A DNA stretch of 64,000 bases from Methylohalobius crimeensis 10Ki (GTDB taxonomy: Bacteria > Pseudomonadota > Gammaproteobacteria > Methylococcales > Methylothermaceae). Shown in pieces: positions 52,189-59,381 of the stretch. The first letter of the stretch is position 1. Each line of letters begins with the position of its first letter. A program made the translations under genes and the position numbers. The notes under the pieces are model-generated. The model was not told the origin of the DNA. It was given only the letters and a program-made list of their open reading frames with translations, and did no database searches. The stretch spans positions 1,054,001 to 1,118,000 of the forward strand of contig NZ_ATXB01000001.1 in NCBI RefSeq assembly GCF_000421465.1, read 5' to 3'.

Positions 52189-53418
52189 ATGCACATACAA
52201 CCGGCCTCTTGGTTGCAAAACCATCCGGATGCGAAAATCGCCCGCGACATTATCCGGGCGTGCGTCCACTGCGGTTTTTGTAACGCCACCTGTCCCACTT
52301 ATCAACTGCTGGGGGACGAGCTGGACGGGCCGCGCGGGCGTATTTATCAGATCAAATCCCTGTGGGAGGGGGCGCCGCCCACGGCTCGCGTTCAAACCCA
52401 TCTGGACCGCTGTCTGACTTGCCGCGCGTGCGAGACCACCTGTCCCTCCGGCGTGCGTTACGGACGCTTGCTCGACATCAGCCGGGGCATCGTGGAGCGC
52501 CAAGTGAAACGTCCCTGGCATCAACGTTTGCTGCGCCGGCTGCTGAGGCTCTGCTTGCCTTATCCCCGGCGGCTCAGACCTTGCTATCGTTTGGCGCAAA
52601 CGGTGCGCCCGTTGATGCCGGCATCGCTCAAGGCCTATGTGGGGACCGACCGAACGCCGGTTTGGCCGGCTGCGCGGCATGCGCGCCGGATGCTGGTTTT
52701 GGACGGCTGCGTCCAGTCCGTGGTGGCGCCCGATATCAATGCCGCCGCCGCTCGAGTTCTCGACCGTCTGGGGATTTCTTTGATTCGAGCTCACCGGGCC
52801 GGTTGCTGCGGTGCGATGAGCGATCACTTGGGCGCCCATGACGAAGGCTTGGCGTTCATGCGCCGCAACATCGATGCTTGGTGGCCGTGGGTGGAGGCGG
52901 GCGTGGAAGCCATCGTCATGACCGCCTCGGGCTGCGGCGTGACGGTCAAGGAGTACGGTGAATTGCTGGCCCATGATCCGGATTACGCCGCCAAGGCGGC
53001 GACCGTTTCGGCGTTGGCCAAGGATTTGAGCGAAGTGCTGGCGGAACAAGCGGGGCTGGAAGCGCTGCAGCCCAAGCCGGTCAAAGTGGCCTTCCAAGCG
53101 CCCTGTACCTTGCAGCACGGCTTGGGTTTGGCAGGCAAAGTGGAAAACCTTTTGAGACGCTTCGGGTTCGAGCTGACGCCCGTCGCCGATCCCCATCTCT
53201 GCTGCGGATCGGCCGGCACCTATTCGATCCTGCAGCCCAAGCTCGCCCGCCGGTTGCGCCGCAATAAGATCGCCGCTTTGAAAAGCGGCGATCCGGACGT
53301 CATCGCCACCGCCAATATCGGCTGTCTGCTGCATTTGCGCCCGGCCGCATCCCGGCCGGTGGTGCATTGGATCGAGTTATTGGATCAGGGCAGCGGGGCG
53401 GGTCGGGTGAAGACGTAA
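52189..53418 (+). CDS. glcF: Glycolate oxidase iron-sulfur subunit GlcF
   Basis: A 409-residue subunit with two ferredoxin-type 4Fe-4S motifs: C25, C28, C31, C35 (CVHCGFCNATCPTY) and C75, C78, C81, C85 (CLTCRACETTCPSG). Two CCG domains follow (AGCCGAMSDHLG and LCCGSAGTYSI). It passes electrons from GlcDE to the respiratory chain. The start abuts the glcE stop. Its 3' end overlaps the convergent cytochrome P460 gene by 34 bases. Confidence 0.95.
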   Translation: MHIQPASWLQNHPDAKIARDIIRACVHCGFCNATCPTYQLLGDELDGPRGRIYQIKSLWEGAPPTARVQTHLDRCLTCRACETTCPSGVRYGRLLDISRGIVERQVKRPWHQRLLRRLLRLCLPYPRRLRPCYRLAQTVRPLMPASLKAYVGTDRTPVWPAARHARRMLVLDGCVQSVVAPDINAAAARVLDRLGISLIRAHRAGCCGAMSDHLGAHDEGLAFMRRNIDAWWPWVEAGVEAIVMTASGCGVTVKEYGELLAHDPDYAAKAATVSALAKDLSEVLAEQAGLEALQPKPVKVAFQAPCTLQHGLGLAGKVENLLRRFGFELTPVADPHLCCGSAGTYSILQPKLARRLRRNKIAALKSGDPDVIATANIGCLLHLRPAASRPVVHWIELLDQGSGAGRVKT

Positions 53419-53870
53419 TCGGTTTTCGCCGCGGTTTGGTGGCACTCGAAGCAGGACTTGCCACCTTGGTTGTTGAGTGGTTCCAGCTTCATACCCACCC
53501 AGCGGGCGAATCCCCAGCCGCCGGTCGCTTTGTACTTTTTACGGTCCTTGATCATGAATTCGATGTGGGAGAGTTCCCCCGGAACCAGGGCCGGTTGCCA
53601 GAGCGGGTGGCGACTGTCCTTCCACACCAGCTTGCCGAGGACGGTCCCATCCGGCCAGGGATCGGTTTTTCCCGCCCGCACCGCTTGCATGGCGATGGCG
53701 TTGCCGGTGATGGCGCGCAAGGAGTCGTTGTCGTCGCGGTGGGAAACGCCGATGACGCGCCAGTTTTTATAGGTCTCCGGCAGTTCGATGCCATTGGAGG
53801 GGGGAGGCGCGGCTTGGACGGTGAGGCAGAACAGGCCGATCGCTGAAGTCAGCAGGTGTTTTTTTAGCAT
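53385..53870 (-). CDS. Cytochrome P460 family protein
   Basis: A 161-residue periplasmic c-type cytochrome with signal peptide (HLLTSAIGLFCLTVQAA) and one CFECH heme-binding motif near the C-terminus (C140, C143, H144). Sequence segments YKNWRVIGVSHRDDNDSLR, KYKATGGWGFARWVG and HIEFMIKD match cytochrome P460 (CytL), which oxidises hydroxylamine to NO or N2O and is known from Methylococcus and Nitrosomonas. The heme-crosslinking lysine of true P460 cannot be proven from sequence alone, so the related cytochrome c'-beta fold is an alternative. It follows feoC by 16 bases with AAAGGAGG, so it is likely part of the iron-uptake operon. Confidence 0.87.
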   Translation of the reverse strand: MLKKHLLTSAIGLFCLTVQAAPPPSNGIELPETYKNWRVIGVSHRDDNDSLRAITGNAIAMQAVRAGKTDPWPDGTVLGKLVWKDSRHPLWQPALVPGELSHIEFMIKDRKKYKATGGWGFARWVGMKLEPLNNQGGKSCFECHQTAAKTDYVFTRPAPLP

Positions 53871-53886
53871 TATTTCCTCCTTTCGG

Positions 53887-54120
53887 TTAGGAGGAATTAT
53901 TGTCCTTGATCCAACGATAGATTTCCACGCTGTCGGGCGGACACAAGCGGCACCCGCCGCCGCACAGCGTCCCGGCAGGCAGCCGTTCCACCTGGCCTTT
54001 GCGGATCAGGCGCTCGAGCATGGGACAGGCGGTTTCAGGGGCGATGCCCAACTCCGCGGCCAGTTCCCCCAAGGGAATCTGCTGGTGCCGGCGGAGCAGG
54101 TCGCGAAGCTCCAGGATCAT
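53887..54120 (-). CDS. feoC: Ferrous iron transport regulator-like FeoC
   Basis: A 77-residue winged-helix protein: LLRRHQQIPLGELAAELGIA helix-turn-helix, followed by the Cys cluster CGGGCRLC (C53, C57, C60) that can bind an Fe-S cluster in FeoC. It is thought to tune FeoB stability or expression. The ATG overlaps the feoB stop as ATGA. The reading frame is open far upstream on the minus strand, which is spurious. Confidence 0.82.
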   Translation of the reverse strand: MILELRDLLRRHQQIPLGELAAELGIAPETACPMLERLIRKGQVERLPAGTLCGGGCRLCPPDSVEIYRWIKDNNSS

Positions 54121-56471
54121 TTGCAGCAGCTGCGTTGAAACATCCCGGGGCCATTTCCGGTTTGGGTGACCGCTCCCGGTGGAGGGGACAGGGTTCTGCC
54201 CCGGAGTTTGAGCAAACCGTACAGCAGGAGGATCGCCACCAATATCGAACCGATATAGATCTGCGACTGCTTGGGATGCTGCGTGAAAGTGACGGTTTGA
54301 TAATAGAGCGTGGCGGCGGCGTAGGCCAAGCCGGTGGTCCAGCTCACTGCGAACAACATCCAGCGCCACCCGGTTTCGCGGCGAATGGTGGCGGTGGCGG
54401 CGACGCAGGGGAAATACAGCAGGACGAACAGCAGATAGGCGAACGCGCCGTGTTGTCCGTCGAAGCGCCTGACCATGGCGCCGAAGGTGGAGGTATGGGC
54501 TTCCAGTTCCTCGGCCGCCCGATCGAGATTGCCGCCGCTGTCCAGGACCCGGAATCCCAAGGGGTCGGTGAGCAGGGCGAGACTTTCTTTGAGGTTCGCC
54601 GGGATGGTGGCGGCCGCTTCTTGGAGCGCTTCGGGAAGACTGAAATCGGAGTCGGCTTCCACCTGGTCGGTCGCTTGGTCCAGGCGCGAGTAGAGGGCGT
54701 CCAAGGTGCCCACCACGACTTCCTTGGCCAACACGCCGCTCAAGATCCCGACGATGGCGGGCCAATTGTCCTCCTCGATGCCCAGAGGCCGGAAAGCCGG
54801 GGTAATGGTCCTGGCCACGCTGGAGAGCCGGGAGGTTTCCGGCGGCACGTCCGGGCCGAACCGACCATCCGTGCTCCAGGCGTTGAGGACGTTGACCACC
54901 ATCACCATGACCACGATGTATTTGCCGGCGTCGGTGACGAAGCCTTTCAGGCGTAGCCAAGTGTGGAGAAGCAGATTGCGCCCACTGGGCCATTGATAGG
55001 CGGGCAGTTCCATCAACAACGGTTCCGGTTCCCCCGGCAACAGGGTGGCTTTGAGCAACAAGGCGGTGAGCATCGCCGCGAGAATCCCCACCAGATAAAG
55101 GACGAAGACGATGTTCTGGCCGTTTTGGGGGAAAAATGCGGCGGCGAAAAGCGCATAGACCGCCAGTCTCGCGCCGCAGGACATGAACGGCGCCATCATC
55201 ACCGTCAGGATGCGTTCCCGCTCCCGCTCCAGGGTGCGCGCCGCCATGATCGCCGGGACGTTGCAGCCGAAGCCGACGATCAGGGGGACGAAGGCTTTTC
55301 CCGGCAAGCCCAGCCGTTCCATCAGGCGATCCATCACCAGCGCCGCGCGGGCCATGTAGCCGGAGTCTTCGAGGAAGGTGAGAAACAGATAGAGGAAGCC
55401 GATGATGGGGATGAAGGTCGCGACGACTTGAAGTCCGCCGCCGATGCCGTCGGCCAAAAGCACTTGGAGCCAGTCCGGCGCTCCCCAGCTTTGCAGAAGC
55501 ACCCGGAAACCGTCCACCAGCAATGCCGCCGCAGCCAAGTCGAAGAAATCGATGAAGGCGCCGCCGATGTTGATGGTGAAGGTGAACATCAAATACATCG
55601 CCAGGAGGAATATGGGGCCGCCCAGCCAGCGGTTGAGGACGACCGCATCGATTCGGTCGGAAGGGGAGGTGGACTTGAGCTCCCCGTGTTTTCTCACGCC
55701 TTGGGCGATCCGCCGAGCGTGTTGATAACGGGCATCGGCGATTAAAAGATCCATTTCCTCGCCCAAGTTTTGTTCCACGTGGGAGCGCAGTTCAGAGGCG
55801 CGGTTCGTAATTTTCTCCGGAATTTCCTGGCGGGAAGGATAACCGGATAGAAGATCCAGCGCCTGCCAGCGAGCCGGCAACTCAGGCGCCGCCGCGGCGA
55901 GTTCTACGGCCACGGTATCGATGGCTTCCGCCAAAGGGGCAGGATACACCACGGAATGGCCGGCATGAGGTCGGCGGGCCTGCCGGGCAACGGTTTGTTT
56001 GAGTACTTCCACGCCCTTGCCCTGGCGCGCTACCAGCGGGACCACCGGAACCCCCAACGCTTCGCTCAAGGCATTGAGATCCAAATGGATGCCTTGACGC
56101 TCCGCCAAATCCATCATATTGAGCGCCAGGACTTGGGGGATTCCGGTTTCGATGAGCTGCAAGGTCAAATAGAGCGCCCGCTCCAGATGGGTGGCGTCGG
56201 CGATGTTGACGATCACCTCGGCCTGATGGGAGAGAATGAATTCCCGCGCGAGGCGTTCGTCGGCGGAAGATTCTCCCGGATCCAGCGAGTAGGTGCCGGG
56301 CAGGTCGATGAGAACGAATTGATCGTCGCCGTGACGGCACCGGCCTTCTTTGCGCTCCACCGTGACCCCCGGCCAGTTGCCGGTGCGCTGGCGAGCGCCG
56401 GTGAGGGCGTTGAAGAGAGAGGTTTTACCCGAATTGGGGTTGCCGATGAGAGCGATAGTGTGTGTCGTCAT
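54117..56471 (-). CDS. feoB: Ferrous iron transporter FeoB
   Basis: A 784-residue inner-membrane Fe(II) transporter. The N-terminal GTPase has G1 GNPNSGKT (residues 10-17), G3 DLPGTYSL and the NMMDLAE segment of G4. Two Gate motifs follow in the membrane domain (GFGCNVPAIMAARTL, and the segment LLYFPCVAATATIRRE). Fourteen-residue-scale details aside, length and domain order fit Nfeo-type FeoB. The start at 56471 overlaps the feoA stop. Confidence 0.96.
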   Translation of the reverse strand: MTTHTIALIGNPNSGKTSLFNALTGARQRTGNWPGVTVERKEGRCRHGDDQFVLIDLPGTYSLDPGESSADERLAREFILSHQAEVIVNIADATHLERALYLTLQLIETGIPQVLALNMMDLAERQGIHLDLNALSEALGVPVVPLVARQGKGVEVLKQTVARQARRPHAGHSVVYPAPLAEAIDTVAVELAAAAPELPARWQALDLLSGYPSRQEIPEKITNRASELRSHVEQNLGEEMDLLIADARYQHARRIAQGVRKHGELKSTSPSDRIDAVVLNRWLGGPIFLLAMYLMFTFTINIGGAFIDFFDLAAAALLVDGFRVLLQSWGAPDWLQVLLADGIGGGLQVVATFIPIIGFLYLFLTFLEDSGYMARAALVMDRLMERLGLPGKAFVPLIVGFGCNVPAIMAARTLERERERILTVMMAPFMSCGARLAVYALFAAAFFPQNGQNIVFVLYLVGILAAMLTALLLKATLLPGEPEPLLMELPAYQWPSGRNLLLHTWLRLKGFVTDAGKYIVVMVMVVNVLNAWSTDGRFGPDVPPETSRLSSVARTITPAFRPLGIEEDNWPAIVGILSGVLAKEVVVGTLDALYSRLDQATDQVEADSDFSLPEALQEAAATIPANLKESLALLTDPLGFRVLDSGGNLDRAAEELEAHTSTFGAMVRRFDGQHGAFAYLLFVLLYFPCVAATATIRRETGWRWMLFAVSWTTGLAYAAATLYYQTVTFTQHPKQSQIYIGSILVAILLLYGLLKLRGRTLSPPPGAVTQTGNGPGMFQRSCCK

Positions 56472-56701
56472 GATGCGCTTACCGGTTCGACCAGAATTTG
56501 TTCGGCGAAGCCCCGACCGATGGCCATCCGGTCGCCGTCTCGGCCGACGATGACCGCGCCGGCCCGGTTCCACAGCACGGTGAGGGTCGTGCCGGGGGCA
56601 AACCCCAGGCTTAGAAGACGTATGCGGACCCGCTTGCCGGGAACGTCCACGATTCGAATCCGTTGTCCGGGCGAAACCATGCTTAAAATTCGAGCATTCA
56701 T
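56468..56701 (-). CDS. feoA: Ferrous iron transport protein FeoA
   Basis: A 77-residue SH3-like protein that aids FeoB (VRIRLLSLGFAPGTTLTVLW, then MAIGRGFAEQILV). First gene of the feoABC-P460 operon, behind a promoter overlapped by a Fur box. It overlaps feoB as ATGA. Confidence 0.92.
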   Translation of the reverse strand: MNARILSMVSPGQRIRIVDVPGKRVRIRLLSLGFAPGTTLTVLWNRAGAVIVGRDGDRMAIGRGFAEQILVEPVSAS

Positions 56702-56717: not shown

Positions 56718-56736
56718 ACTAATGATAATGATTATA
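56718..56736 (-). promoter_or_regulatory. Fur box at the feoA promoter
   Basis: The 19-base element matches 15 of 19 positions of the Fur consensus (GATAATGATAATCATTATC), with a GATAATGAT core. It overlaps the feoA -10 hexamer, so iron-bound Fur would block transcription. It lies in the gap shared with the divergent CBS-domain gene, which may also be affected. Confidence 0.8.
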
Positions 56737-56758
56737 CTTTTTCCAATAAAATTGTCCA
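56731..56758 (-). promoter_or_regulatory. Sigma-70 promoter for the feoABC operon
   Basis: On the minus strand TGGACA (56753-56758, 5/6) and TATAAT (56731-56736, 6/6) are separated by 16 bases, about 30 bases before the feoA ATG. The -10 lies inside the Fur box. Confidence 0.7.
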
Positions 56759-56867
56759 GCGGATGGGACATTCGGTTTCCGATTCAGTTGCAAAAACTTT
56801 AAGATAGGGGTTTTGTGGGGAAATTCTCACGTTATTCGGACAATCACGTCAGTGAGTAGCTTTGAAA

Positions 56868-57659
56868 ATGGCCGATCAAGATCAAGCCAAGAAAAAAAAA
56901 CGACCTAAGAAACCTAAAAAAACCCGCTCCTATCGGGGCAAGGCACTTCTCTGGATTTTCGTGCTGTTGGTGAGCGATGAAGTCACGCCGGGGATCCCGT
57001 TCGCCGAAGTATTGATGCTTTCCATCTTGATTTTTTTGCCGCGTTGGTTCCTGAATATGGTCCATCGGGTTTACGAATACGTTCCTCGGAGCCAAGCCTG
57101 GCGTTCGGTGGGGGATATCTGCCAGCGTCAAGTGGTGACGGTTCCGCCCGACACGCCGGTGATCGATGTGGCTCGGTTGATGCGCGACGAACACGTTAGA
57201 AGCTTGGTGGTCGTGGAAAAACGCGAATATCTCCCCACCCCGGAAGAAGTCGCCTCCGAGACAATCAAAAAGAAAGGCGGAAAGGGTAAACGCGCACAAG
57301 AAAAAGCGGTCAGCCCCGGCCAACCCCGGGCCGAGACGATCCTGGTTCCAGTCGGAATCCTGACCGATCGGGATATCGCCCTCCGGGTTGAAGCGGAAGG
57401 TCTGTCCTGGAGCGCGACCACGGTGGCCGAAGTCATGACCACCAATTTGGCGGTAGCGGTCGAAACAGAGGATGTCCATTCGGTGGTGGAGAAAATGGGC
57501 GAGGTCGGCGCGCGGCAGCTTCCGGTGGTGGATCGGCGCGGGGAAATCGTAGGCACCCTCAGCCTGGATGAAACCATCGCCATGCTTTCCGACAGTTTGG
57601 ACGATATGGTGGAGCTGCTCCAACGGGAAATCCAAAGGGAAGCCGAAGTCAACGCTTGA
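56868..57659 (+). CDS. CBS-domain membrane protein, copy 1
   Basis: A 263-residue protein: a Lys-rich cytoplasmic N-terminus (KKKKRPKKPKKTR), two hydrophobic segments (about 27-60, ALLWIFVLLVSDEV and VLMLSILIFLPRWFLNMV), then a pair of CBS motifs (VGDICQRQVVTVPPDTPVID and VAEVMTTNLAVAVETEDVHS) that usually bind adenine nucleotides. A Lys-rich insert splits the first CBS motif (KKKGGKGKRAQEK). I cannot assign a function. ATG at 56868 preferred over an upstream TTG. It is followed by a paralogue 68 bases later. Confidence 0.78.
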   Translation: MADQDQAKKKKRPKKPKKTRSYRGKALLWIFVLLVSDEVTPGIPFAEVLMLSILIFLPRWFLNMVHRVYEYVPRSQAWRSVGDICQRQVVTVPPDTPVIDVARLMRDEHVRSLVVVEKREYLPTPEEVASETIKKKGGKGKRAQEKAVSPGQPRAETILVPVGILTDRDIALRVEAEGLSWSATTVAEVMTTNLAVAVETEDVHSVVEKMGEVGARQLPVVDRRGEIVGTLSLDETIAMLSDSLDDMVELLQREIQREAEVNA

Positions 57660-57727
57660 TTACGGAAGGTTTCACACGCGTCTGGACACAATTTTAGATC
57701 CGTTTGGTGAATCAGGAAAATTCTAAG

Positions 57728-58510
57728 ATGGCCGATCAAGAACAAGCGCAGAAGAAAAAACCTAAAAAGGAGCGTTCCTATAAAGCCAAGGTAATCATTT
57801 GGACGATTGTGCTTTTGGTAATCGATGAAGTGACGATCGGGGTTCCCGAAGCCGATCTTTTGTTGATTTTCGTGGTGCTGTTCCGTCCCCAATGGTTTCT
57901 GAACATGATGCACCGACTTTACAAGTATGTTCCCCATAAGCGGGCCTGGCGTCCGGTGGGAGAGGTATGTCGACGCGAAGTGGTGACGATTTCGCCGGAC
58001 ACGATGGTGGCCGATGCCGCTCGATTAATGCGCGATCGACACGAGCGGGGTCTTTTGGTGGTGGAAGAACGCGAATACTTTCCCTCCTTGGAAAGAGATA
58101 AGCGTAAGAAGAAAAAATGGTGGGGCAGACGGAGCAAGAAAAAATCGATCGAGTCGCCTCCGCCTGAAGCCGAGACGATTATAGTGCCGGTCGGCATTCT
58201 GATCGATCGGGACATCATTCTGCGGATCGGTGCGGAGGATCTTTCGGGGGCTACGATACCGGTGGCCGAGGTCATGACGACGGAATTGGAGGTCACGCTC
58301 GAATCGGAAGACGTGCATTCGGCCGTGGAAAAAATGCGTGAGGCCGGTATGCGGCGCTTGCCGGTGGTGGATCACCGGGGAAGTCTGGTGGGTATCTTGA
58401 GTCTGGACGACACCATCGCCATGCTTTCCGACGGATTGAATGATATGTCCTCGTTGCTGCAACGGGAAATGCAAAAGGAAGCTGCAGTCGAAACCCAGGG
58501 CGCCGGGTAA
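57728..58510 (+). CDS. CBS-domain membrane protein, copy 2
   Basis: A 260-residue paralogue of the preceding gene with the same order: MADQEQAQKKKPKKERS N-terminus, hydrophobic segments (VIIWTIVLLVIDEVTIG, then ADLLLIFVVLFRPQWFLNMM) and two CBS motifs (VGEVCRREVVTISPDTMVAD and VAEVMTTELEVTLESEDVHS). The Lys-rich insert differs in sequence but is in the same place. Tandem duplication is the simplest explanation. ATG at 57728 preferred over a GTG at 57704. It converges on the Clp1-like gene. Confidence 0.78.
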   Translation: MADQEQAQKKKPKKERSYKAKVIIWTIVLLVIDEVTIGVPEADLLLIFVVLFRPQWFLNMMHRLYKYVPHKRAWRPVGEVCRREVVTISPDTMVADAARLMRDRHERGLLVVEEREYFPSLERDKRKKKKWWGRRSKKKSIESPPPEAETIIVPVGILIDRDIILRIGAEDLSGATIPVAEVMTTELEVTLESEDVHSAVEKMREAGMRRLPVVDHRGSLVGILSLDDTIAMLSDGLNDMSSLLQREMQKEAAVETQGAG

Positions 58511-58520
58511 TATTAGAGCG

Positions 58521-59381
58521 TTATCCGTCTGCCGGATCCAACCGCAGATCGCTCCATTGAAGCACCTTGACCGCGTCCCGATTCACGGGGCTGGAAATAA
58601 AGATGCGTTGTTTATGCGAATCGAAGCGCTGAATCAGTCCCAATCCCAATGGTTTTTGGTGGGCATCAGCCAGACCGCACAAGAGATTTGCGCTTAAAAG
58701 CGTCTCCAAAGGGGGGCGTCCCCGCGTCGGAAGACGTTGTAGATTCACAACATTTCTATTGAGGGCAAATGCCTTGGCGCGACGGAAGTAACGACGGAAC
58801 GCGGCCTGCCTGCGCTCGAAGCGGAATTGCGGTGATTTGAGGCGGGCGTGAGAAGAAGGATGTAAACGTAAAATTCGAAAATGACGGTGGGCCGTCAGGA
58901 TGGCATTCAGTTCCCGTCCTCGCGCCAAGGCGACGATGGCATCCGGCTGGAGACTGTCAATCTGATACGCTTTCAATATTTCCCCGACGCCTTGTATCAG
59001 GCCGCTGGTGTTGATGATCACGAAGGGGGCATTTGTCCGATCCAGAAGCTGGCGGGTGCCCACGATCATGGGTAAAAAATGCGCCACCGGCGTCACCGCC
59101 CCCACGAAATAGATGCCGGCCGGCTGCAGACGGGAGAGCGGTTGGTTCAAATCTGGATAACCCAGCGTCACGGTGGCCGGAGGCCCGATATCTTTCTGTC
59201 CCACATCGGCGTCGATGATCGCCGGCTGCATACCTTGTCGCAACAAATACCACGCCAGGTAAGTGCAGAAAGTGCTTTTGCCCCGATCGGAAGCCCCCAA
59301 TACCAGGATCTTTCGAAGCCCGCGGCCAAATATAGATTGGGCCGCGTTTTTCCAGTCTTCCGGAACGTGCATGGTTTCCAT
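58521..59381 (-). CDS. Clp1/Grc3-like polynucleotide 5'-hydroxyl kinase
   Basis: A 286-residue P-loop protein. Walker A is GASDRGKST (residues 29-37), in the GxxDxGKST form typical of Clp1 and Grc3 kinases, and the catalytic/clasp motif DADVGQ (D57, D59, Q62) follows. The segment INTSGLIQGVGEILKAYQ is the Clp1 NTxGWxxG-like motif. Family members phosphorylate RNA or DNA 5'-OH ends; such genes are rare in bacteria. A partner ligase or nuclease is not adjacent. Kinase activity is inferred. The ATG at 59381 has no strong ribosome site; a second ATG lies three codons in. Confidence 0.75.
   Translation of the reverse strand: METMHVPEDWKNAAQSIFGRGLRKILVLGASDRGKSTFCTYLAWYLLRQGMQPAIIDADVGQKDIGPPATVTLGYPDLNQPLSRLQPAGIYFVGAVTPVAHFLPMIVGTRQLLDRTNAPFVIINTSGLIQGVGEILKAYQIDSLQPDAIVALARGRELNAILTAHRHFRILRLHPSSHARLKSPQFRFERRQAAFRRYFRRAKAFALNRNVVNLQRLPTRGRPPLETLLSANLLCGLADAHQKPLGLGLIQRFDSHKQRIFISSPVNRDAVKVLQWSDLRLDPADG

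Follow-up and report, generated by a model that had tools for sequence, protein, structure and literature searches.

Organization of the locus

The minus strand of the window (the whole 64-kb stretch of DNA that was analysed) carries feoA, feoB, feoC and a gene for a cytochrome P460, in that order (Table 1). The ORF coordinates place them where an earlier reading of the letters without database searches (the sequence-only reading) had named them. Adjacent genes overlap by 4 nt at feoA/feoB and again at feoB/feoC, and 16 nt separate the stop codon of feoC from the ATG of P460, which is preceded by AAAGGAGG. Both the coordinates and the Pfam matches bear out the claim that P460 is the last gene of feoABC, 16 bases past feoC. 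With adjacent feoA, feoB and feoC and a Fur box, the locus has the make-up of a feoABC operon, sharing its gene order, its overlaps and the upstream position of the Fur box with those of gammaproteobacteria. It differs from these by a fourth gene after feoC, which codes for a periplasmic heme enzyme; a signal-like segment was recognized by eye at the N-terminus of this protein.

Among the genes around the operon, the CLP1-type P-loop domain protein has homologues near the feo operon in two other genomes of the genus (G003 and G006). The genome that contains the window (G000) also has two more, diverged FeoB genes, located less than 4 kb from each other (G000:C1:450966 and 454625; L061).

Table 1. 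Positions of genes and predicted elements at the feoABC-P460 locus, in window coordinates
Feature	Position	Strand	Description
glcF-like gene	52189..53418	+	Fer4/CCG domains; convergent context, outside the operon; its last 34 nt overlap P460
Cytochrome P460 gene	53385..53870	-	161 aa, one CxxCH; full-length match to PF16694, 128.1 bits (cut-off 27)
Predicted hairpin	53874..53896	-	8-bp stem; 3' end of feoC (TCCTCCTAA) paired with the P460 Shine-Dalgarno sequence
feoC	53887..54120	-	PF09012, 59.0 bits
feoB	54117..56471	-	784 aa; PF02421 (FeoB_N), 214.5 bits; NCBIfam FeoB equivalog, 855 bits
feoA	56468..56701	-	PF04023, 57.7 bits
Predicted Fur box	56721..56739	-	AATGATAATNATTATCATT; near-palindrome reading on both strands, upstream of feoA; 2 mismatches
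Sigma70-like promoter	56731..56758	-	TGGACA-16-TATAAT, 11/12 matches; -10 element under the Fur box
Two tandem related genes	56862..58510		Divergent from feoA; CBS domain shown for the first
CLP1-type P-loop domain protein	58521..59381	-	Near the operon

Predicted regulation of the operon

The Fur box, at 2 mismatches of 18 specified bases, was the single match to the Fur pattern in the window, where 0.01 matches would be expected. Over the whole genome, which has two Fur-family genes, the pattern gave 7 sites with up to 3 mismatches versus none for a reversed-pattern control. A Fur-like site (2 to 4 mismatches) was found upstream of feoA in 8 of the 9 feo-bearing genomes of the genus, and between 0 and 4 of 500 mononucleotide shuffles gave a site that was equally good. 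The ninth genome (G007) is uninformative about the Fur site, as its contig stops 42 nt ahead of the aligned feoA. The description of the operon as Fur-controlled agrees with the predicted site, its recurrence in the genus and the two Fur-family genes; control by Fur is a prediction with good support that very probably holds. With this pattern, the best match in the genome has 1 mismatch and sits immediately upstream of an ORF for a multicopper oxidase (G000:C1:115161; L094).

A scan of 4.8 kb gave two sigma70-like sites, both on the minus strand (1.0 expected by chance), of which the first is the promoter-like site upstream of feoA. The second, which matches at 9/12 positions, is located within feoB and is at the level of chance. 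A separate promoter for P460, which the sequence-only reading had set against its own proposal, did not emerge: the scan gave no site between feoC and P460 and none above chance near P460. That reading had also reported the lack of a terminator between feoC and P460, and a scan of the 4.8-kb region found no terminator-like site there in the operon direction; on both strands together the region has 5 such sites, versus 5.9 in shuffles. It is highly likely, from this layout, that P460 is co-transcribed with feoABC.

A feature of the junction overlooked by the sequence-only reading is a hairpin in which the last codons of feoC (TCC TCC TAA) form the 5' arm and pair with the Shine-Dalgarno sequence of P460 (Table 1). 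For the 42-nt junction the predicted folding energy is -11.3 kcal/mol, a value reached by none of 1000 mononucleotide shuffles; the result is weaker for 111 nt around the junction, where 8 of 200 dinucleotide shuffles were as low. Since there is no U-run on that strand, the hairpin is read as a stem that buries the ribosome-binding site rather than as a terminator. The stop codon of feoC lies in the 5' arm, and a ribosome ending feoC would therefore open the stem, which predicts translational coupling; P460 is probably coupled to feoC in this way. Among the 7 genus junctions folded, the hairpin was seen in the window genome only, and its absence from the other six rules it out as a conserved regulator.

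Family and key residues of the P460 protein

The best solved relative of the window P460 is the cytochrome P460 of Methylococcus capsulatus (McP460, 6hiu; E=2e-47), and the protein is a member of the P460/c'-beta family PF16694 (Table 1). In McP460 numbering, R43, R50, K78, R121, C140, C143 and H144 are kept in all six intact copies of the genus. The cysteines and histidine belong to the c-type heme motif CxxCH, which reads CFECH in the window protein. K78 is the position of the heme cross-link lysine (Lys78 in McP460, Lys70 in NeP460 of Nitrosomonas europaea); it is present as a residue, the bond not being visible in sequence, and is shared by the 5 other intact genus copies. Compared with McP460 (PDB 6HIU), which the window P460 resembles in the cross-link lysine, CxxCH, R43, R50 and R121, two positions differ in 6/6 intact genus copies: the distal Asp102 is replaced by Glu and Gln100 by His. 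A distal carboxylate is therefore present as a residue, as a Glu at the Asp102 position. Both replacements are frequent outside the genus: in 64 non-genus P460-type rows, position 102 is Glu in 52, Asp in 9, Gly in 2 and Gln in 1, and position 100 is His in 41. The nine Asp rows comprise 7 Methylococcus-like ones, among which one gene appears twice, and 2 others.

The same combination of cross-link Lys and distal Glu is found in NeP460, where the carboxylate is Glu96 (PMC11928373), although the sequence of NeP460 is only distantly alike (2je2, E=0.00018). Cytochrome c'-beta shares the fold family and the Pfam family of the window P460, but is distinguished by the lack of both the cross-link Lys and the distal carboxylate and by a hydrophobic "Phe cap"; in McCP-beta, Phe takes the place of the cross-link Lys and Gly that of the carboxylate. 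With K78, E102 and R50, the window protein is not of this type. Its cross-link Lys, CxxCH motif, distal carboxylate and capping Arg mark it, as far as sequence shows, as a true cytochrome P460.

A 2025 review (PMC11928373) describes two hydroxylamine-oxidizing P460s that have the Lys cross-link together with a distal carboxylate, Glu96 in Nitrosomonas and Asp102 in Methylococcus, and an inactive P460 in which the cross-link is present and Ala replaces the carboxylate. The residues of the window P460 make it likely that the protein oxidizes hydroxylamine. According to the same source, the Glu96Asp substitution abolishes the activity of the Nitrosomonas P460. The placing of the carboxylate is thus exacting, given that the Methylococcus enzyme has Asp, and activity with Glu on the scaffold of the window protein is therefore not certain.

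Conservation within the genus

P460 of the window type adjoins feoC in 7 of the 10 genomes of this Methylothermaceae genus, in which the relatives on named contigs are Methylothermaceae MAGs. The distance from the feoC stop codon to the P460 start is 16 nt in G000, 17 nt in G001, -22 nt in G006, -13 nt in G008 and 17 nt in G009, where the start codon is GTG. Five of the 7 junctions therefore fall between -22 and +17 nt, two of them overlapping; a broken copy, in G001, is among the five. The other two are looser. In G002 the gap is 160 nt when counted to the ATG that a Shine-Dalgarno sequence precedes, or 148 nt to a GTG upstream of it, and in G007 the distance is 1331 nt. An ORF of 339 aa lies on the opposite strand between feoC and P460 of G007 (L055, 3420-4436), where the sister genome G002 has only 160 nt. 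Because of the 160-nt gap in G002, and of the 1331-nt gap with its opposite-strand ORF in G007, transcription from the feo promoter may not reach P460 in these two genomes. In both, the sequence ahead of P460 resembles a promoter by eye, and no Fur box was found in the 200-nt stretches before the gene (best 7 and 9 mismatches).

In G003 and G004, feo is present and there is no P460 of the window type; neither FeoB nor P460 was found in G005. The convergent glcF directly follows P460 in G000, G001, G008 and G009, another ORF lying between them in G006, and in G004 feoC runs directly into glcF. Because G004 pairs with G008, a P460 carrier, on the FeoB tree (99/96), its lack of P460 looks like a loss. 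The P460 of G001 (L049, 8414-8896) is broken: codon 37 is an in-frame TAG, and the heme motif reads CFECQ; G001 is a single-contig genome, and P460 is intact in its sister G009. Since P460 is missing from the feo-keeping G003 and G004 and broken in G001, it is, judging from these genomes, dispensable.

The feo-linked P460s form one clade (100/100) among the 71 rows of a tree from which four c'-beta paralogues, duplicate loci of genus copies and L076 were dropped. Compared unrooted, P460 and FeoB branch alike across the 7 genomes that have both, an agreement that suggests descent of P460 together with the operon; the root of the FeoB tree is unsure, its outgroup being a single very diverged FeoB on a branch of 3.66. 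Values of dN/dS were 0.08 to 0.20 for 15 pairs of intact P460 copies and 0.12 to 0.28 for 21 pairs of FeoB, all of them rough, with many dS above 1. By these ratios, P460 is under purifying selection.

Near feo, in the 9 feo-bearing genomes, the CBS genes were found in 8, P460 in 7 and glcF, on the downstream side, in 6, some contigs being too short there to be informative. The kept adjacency is insufficient as proof of function: glcF and the CBS genes, with no obvious link to feo, are retained in a similar share of the genomes.

P460 loci outside the genus

No FeoA, FeoB or FeoC match was found in the flanks, of up to about 1.5 kb, of 59 non-genus P460 loci, the best-scoring loci from searches of the order and the class; L030 and L076 represent one gene, and the 5' flank of L079 spans no more than 319 nt. 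The Methylococcus-like P460 loci examined, unlike the window P460, have no feo genes within flanks of about that length, and none of 5 Bacteroidota P460 loci had a feo match within 6-kb flanks. Across the order, the closest non-genus P460-feo pairs noticed on shared contigs were about 28-29 kb apart, judged by eye among the matches listed. The association of P460 with feo proposed by the sequence-only reading stands within the genus, where P460 lies beside feoC in 7 of 10 genomes, and was not seen beyond it in the 59 best-scoring loci.

Outside the genus the neighbors of P460 are varied, with 115 neighbor ORFs at 58 loci and the largest shared family present in 9. The members of this family are ECF-type sigma-factor-like genes (~170 aa), an assignment made by scanning one representative (L073:955-1461). 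They adjoin P460 in other gammaproteobacteria (L069, L072, L073, L074, L075, L080, L087, L089 and L091), downstream on the same strand in 7 loci and upstream on the opposite strand in 2. By eye, no common promoter motif was seen upstream of P460 in 20 of the 58 distinct non-genus loci.

Hydroxylamine-related genes in the same genome

A second member of the PF16694 family in the window genome (G000:C1:2657829) has Phe at position 78 and Gly at position 102, as cytochrome c'-beta does, and adjoins the gene for hydroxylamine oxidoreductase (HAO), not feo. The two genes are divergent (G000:C1:2657829-2659656; L058 and L092), and the pair recurs in contig 44 of G003. For proteins of the c'-beta type, NO roles are proposed in PMC11928373. 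The HAO of the genome has 8 CxxCH motifs and P460 has one. Genes of the PmoA/AmoA family occur at two places. PMC11928373 states that MMO forms some hydroxylamine from ammonia and that methanotroph HAO and P460 may remove it.

HAO was found in 9 of the 10 genus genomes, G008 being the exception. All genomes that lack an intact feo-linked P460 (G001, G003, G004 and G005) have it, which agrees weakly with the idea that P460 spares iron. As a candidate Fur box near HAO, the best site between HAO and the c'-beta gene had 8 mismatches and was equalled in 274 of 300 shuffles, and it was rejected. HAO is therefore not visibly switched by Fur, which counts against a reciprocal switch of the two enzymes.

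DISCUSSION

The genes, their order, the Fur box and the pocket residues can be read directly from the DNA; what P460 does in this operon is a matter of interpretation. The explanation that we favor, at a probability of roughly one half, is that the feoABC-P460 operon is derepressed through Fur and that P460 serves as a periplasmic hydroxylamine detoxifier that costs less iron than HAO. The Fur-repressed feoABC transcript would run on through a fourth gene, for a secreted cytochrome P460 with a Lys cross-link, the translation of which would be coupled to that of feoC. Low iron would deplete Fur-Fe(II) and turn the operon on, and NO acting on the Fur-bound iron would be a second, compatible trigger. 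Hydroxylamine would arise from the co-oxidation of ammonia by pMMO, and P460 would oxidize it in the periplasm to N2O/NO, taking over detoxification when the heme-rich HAO cannot be built.

The sequence-only reading had called the expression of a heme enzyme at low iron unexpected. Its placement of the gene under predicted Fur control stands, and the surprise is lessened by the possibility that P460 is a cheaper substitute: with one heme motif per subunit versus eight in HAO, P460 is a heme enzyme whose production at low iron is coherent. HAO of N. europaea has 24 hemes per enzyme, and under Fe limitation a fur-promoter mutant of that organism showed a two-fold lower hydroxylamine-dependent O2 uptake than the wild type (PMC3050691); the main text of that study does not mention P460. 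Taken on its own, iron sparing is a tentative answer to why P460 is in the operon, and induction of the operon by NO through Fur is equally tentative. A full iron-sparing isozyme switch, in which the one-heme P460 replaces the eight-heme HAO once iron is exhausted or Fur is disabled by NO, is somewhat less probable still.

The strongest competitor is an accident of position, in which P460 settled downstream of feo in the ancestor of the genus and is passively read through, with no regulatory meaning. The absence or breakage of P460 in 3 of the 9 feo-bearing genomes (G001, G003 and G004) and the looser junctions of G002 and G007 fit such an accident, as do the preserved synteny of unrelated flanking genes and the varied neighbors of P460 elsewhere, where the largest shared family reaches 9 of 58 loci. 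It accounts less well for 5 of the 7 junctions, in which the genes overlap or are no more than 17 nt apart, for the purifying selection on P460, and for the hairpin at the ribosome-binding site, by which P460 of the window genome would be coupled to feoC. We regard it as a doubtful reading, though a serious one.

The suggestion of the sequence-only reading that P460 could act as protection against NO for Fe(II) uptake or for Fe-S proteins is not specifically supported. Such a P460 would bind or consume periplasmic NO, shielding Fe(II) uptake or Fe-S repair, and would be induced by the nitrosylation of Fur. NO reportedly inhibits Fur by nitrosylating its iron, an effect said to have been published by D'Autreaux in 2002. 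Reduction of NO to N2O by NOR or by cytochrome P460 is also described, but so is the formation of NO or N2O by P460 in its own oxidation of hydroxylamine (PMC11928373). The pocket, with its Lys and carboxylate, is of the hydroxylamine-oxidizing type, and the c'-beta type protein, for which NO roles are proposed, is a separate gene beside HAO. Defense against NO is therefore an improbable explanation.

We know of no P460 that reduces Fe(III) or feeds FeoB, and a role of this kind, in which P460 would reduce periplasmic Fe(III), or aid hydroxylamine in doing so, and thereby supply FeoB with Fe(II), is very improbable given the conserved ligand-pocket residues and the loss or breakage of P460 in relatives that keep feo. 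It would draw on the operon shared with an Fe(II) importer, the periplasmic site expected from the signal-like N-terminus (by eye) and the low potential of McP460, -380 to -300 mV (PMC6427953).

The favored explanation, a Fur-derepressed detoxifier of hydroxylamine, joins elements that are each known, namely P460, feoABC and Fur boxes, and their union in one operon appears to be new. A full-text search of 5.39 million open-access papers, which leaves most subscription journals uncovered, gave no paper with P460 and FeoB together, and none of the 25 papers listed out of 1,600 broader matches describes a P460-feo operon in its title or at the start of its abstract. The feo operon of Methylomonas sp. 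DH-1 is likewise found in a methanotroph and is stress-regulated, but RegA is its reported direct regulator, "Fur" is absent from the main text and cytochrome P460 is not mentioned (PMC13274454). A Methylothermaceae genome with hao, NirK and cNOR has been described in a paper whose main text contains neither P460 nor Feo (PMC4688376).

A methanotroph study calls the function of P460 in these bacteria still open (PMC6277846). The genus offers a natural comparison set for this function, with the fused operon, genomes that have no P460 of the window type and one broken copy. P460 can make N2O from hydroxylamine (PMC11928373), and a Fur-controlled P460 would tie the detoxification of hydroxylamine and the release of N2O to iron limitation by a concrete, testable rule. 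If the isozyme switch is true, the fate of hydroxylamine would shift from the products of HAO towards N2O, and iron status would directly set the N2O output of these methanotrophs.
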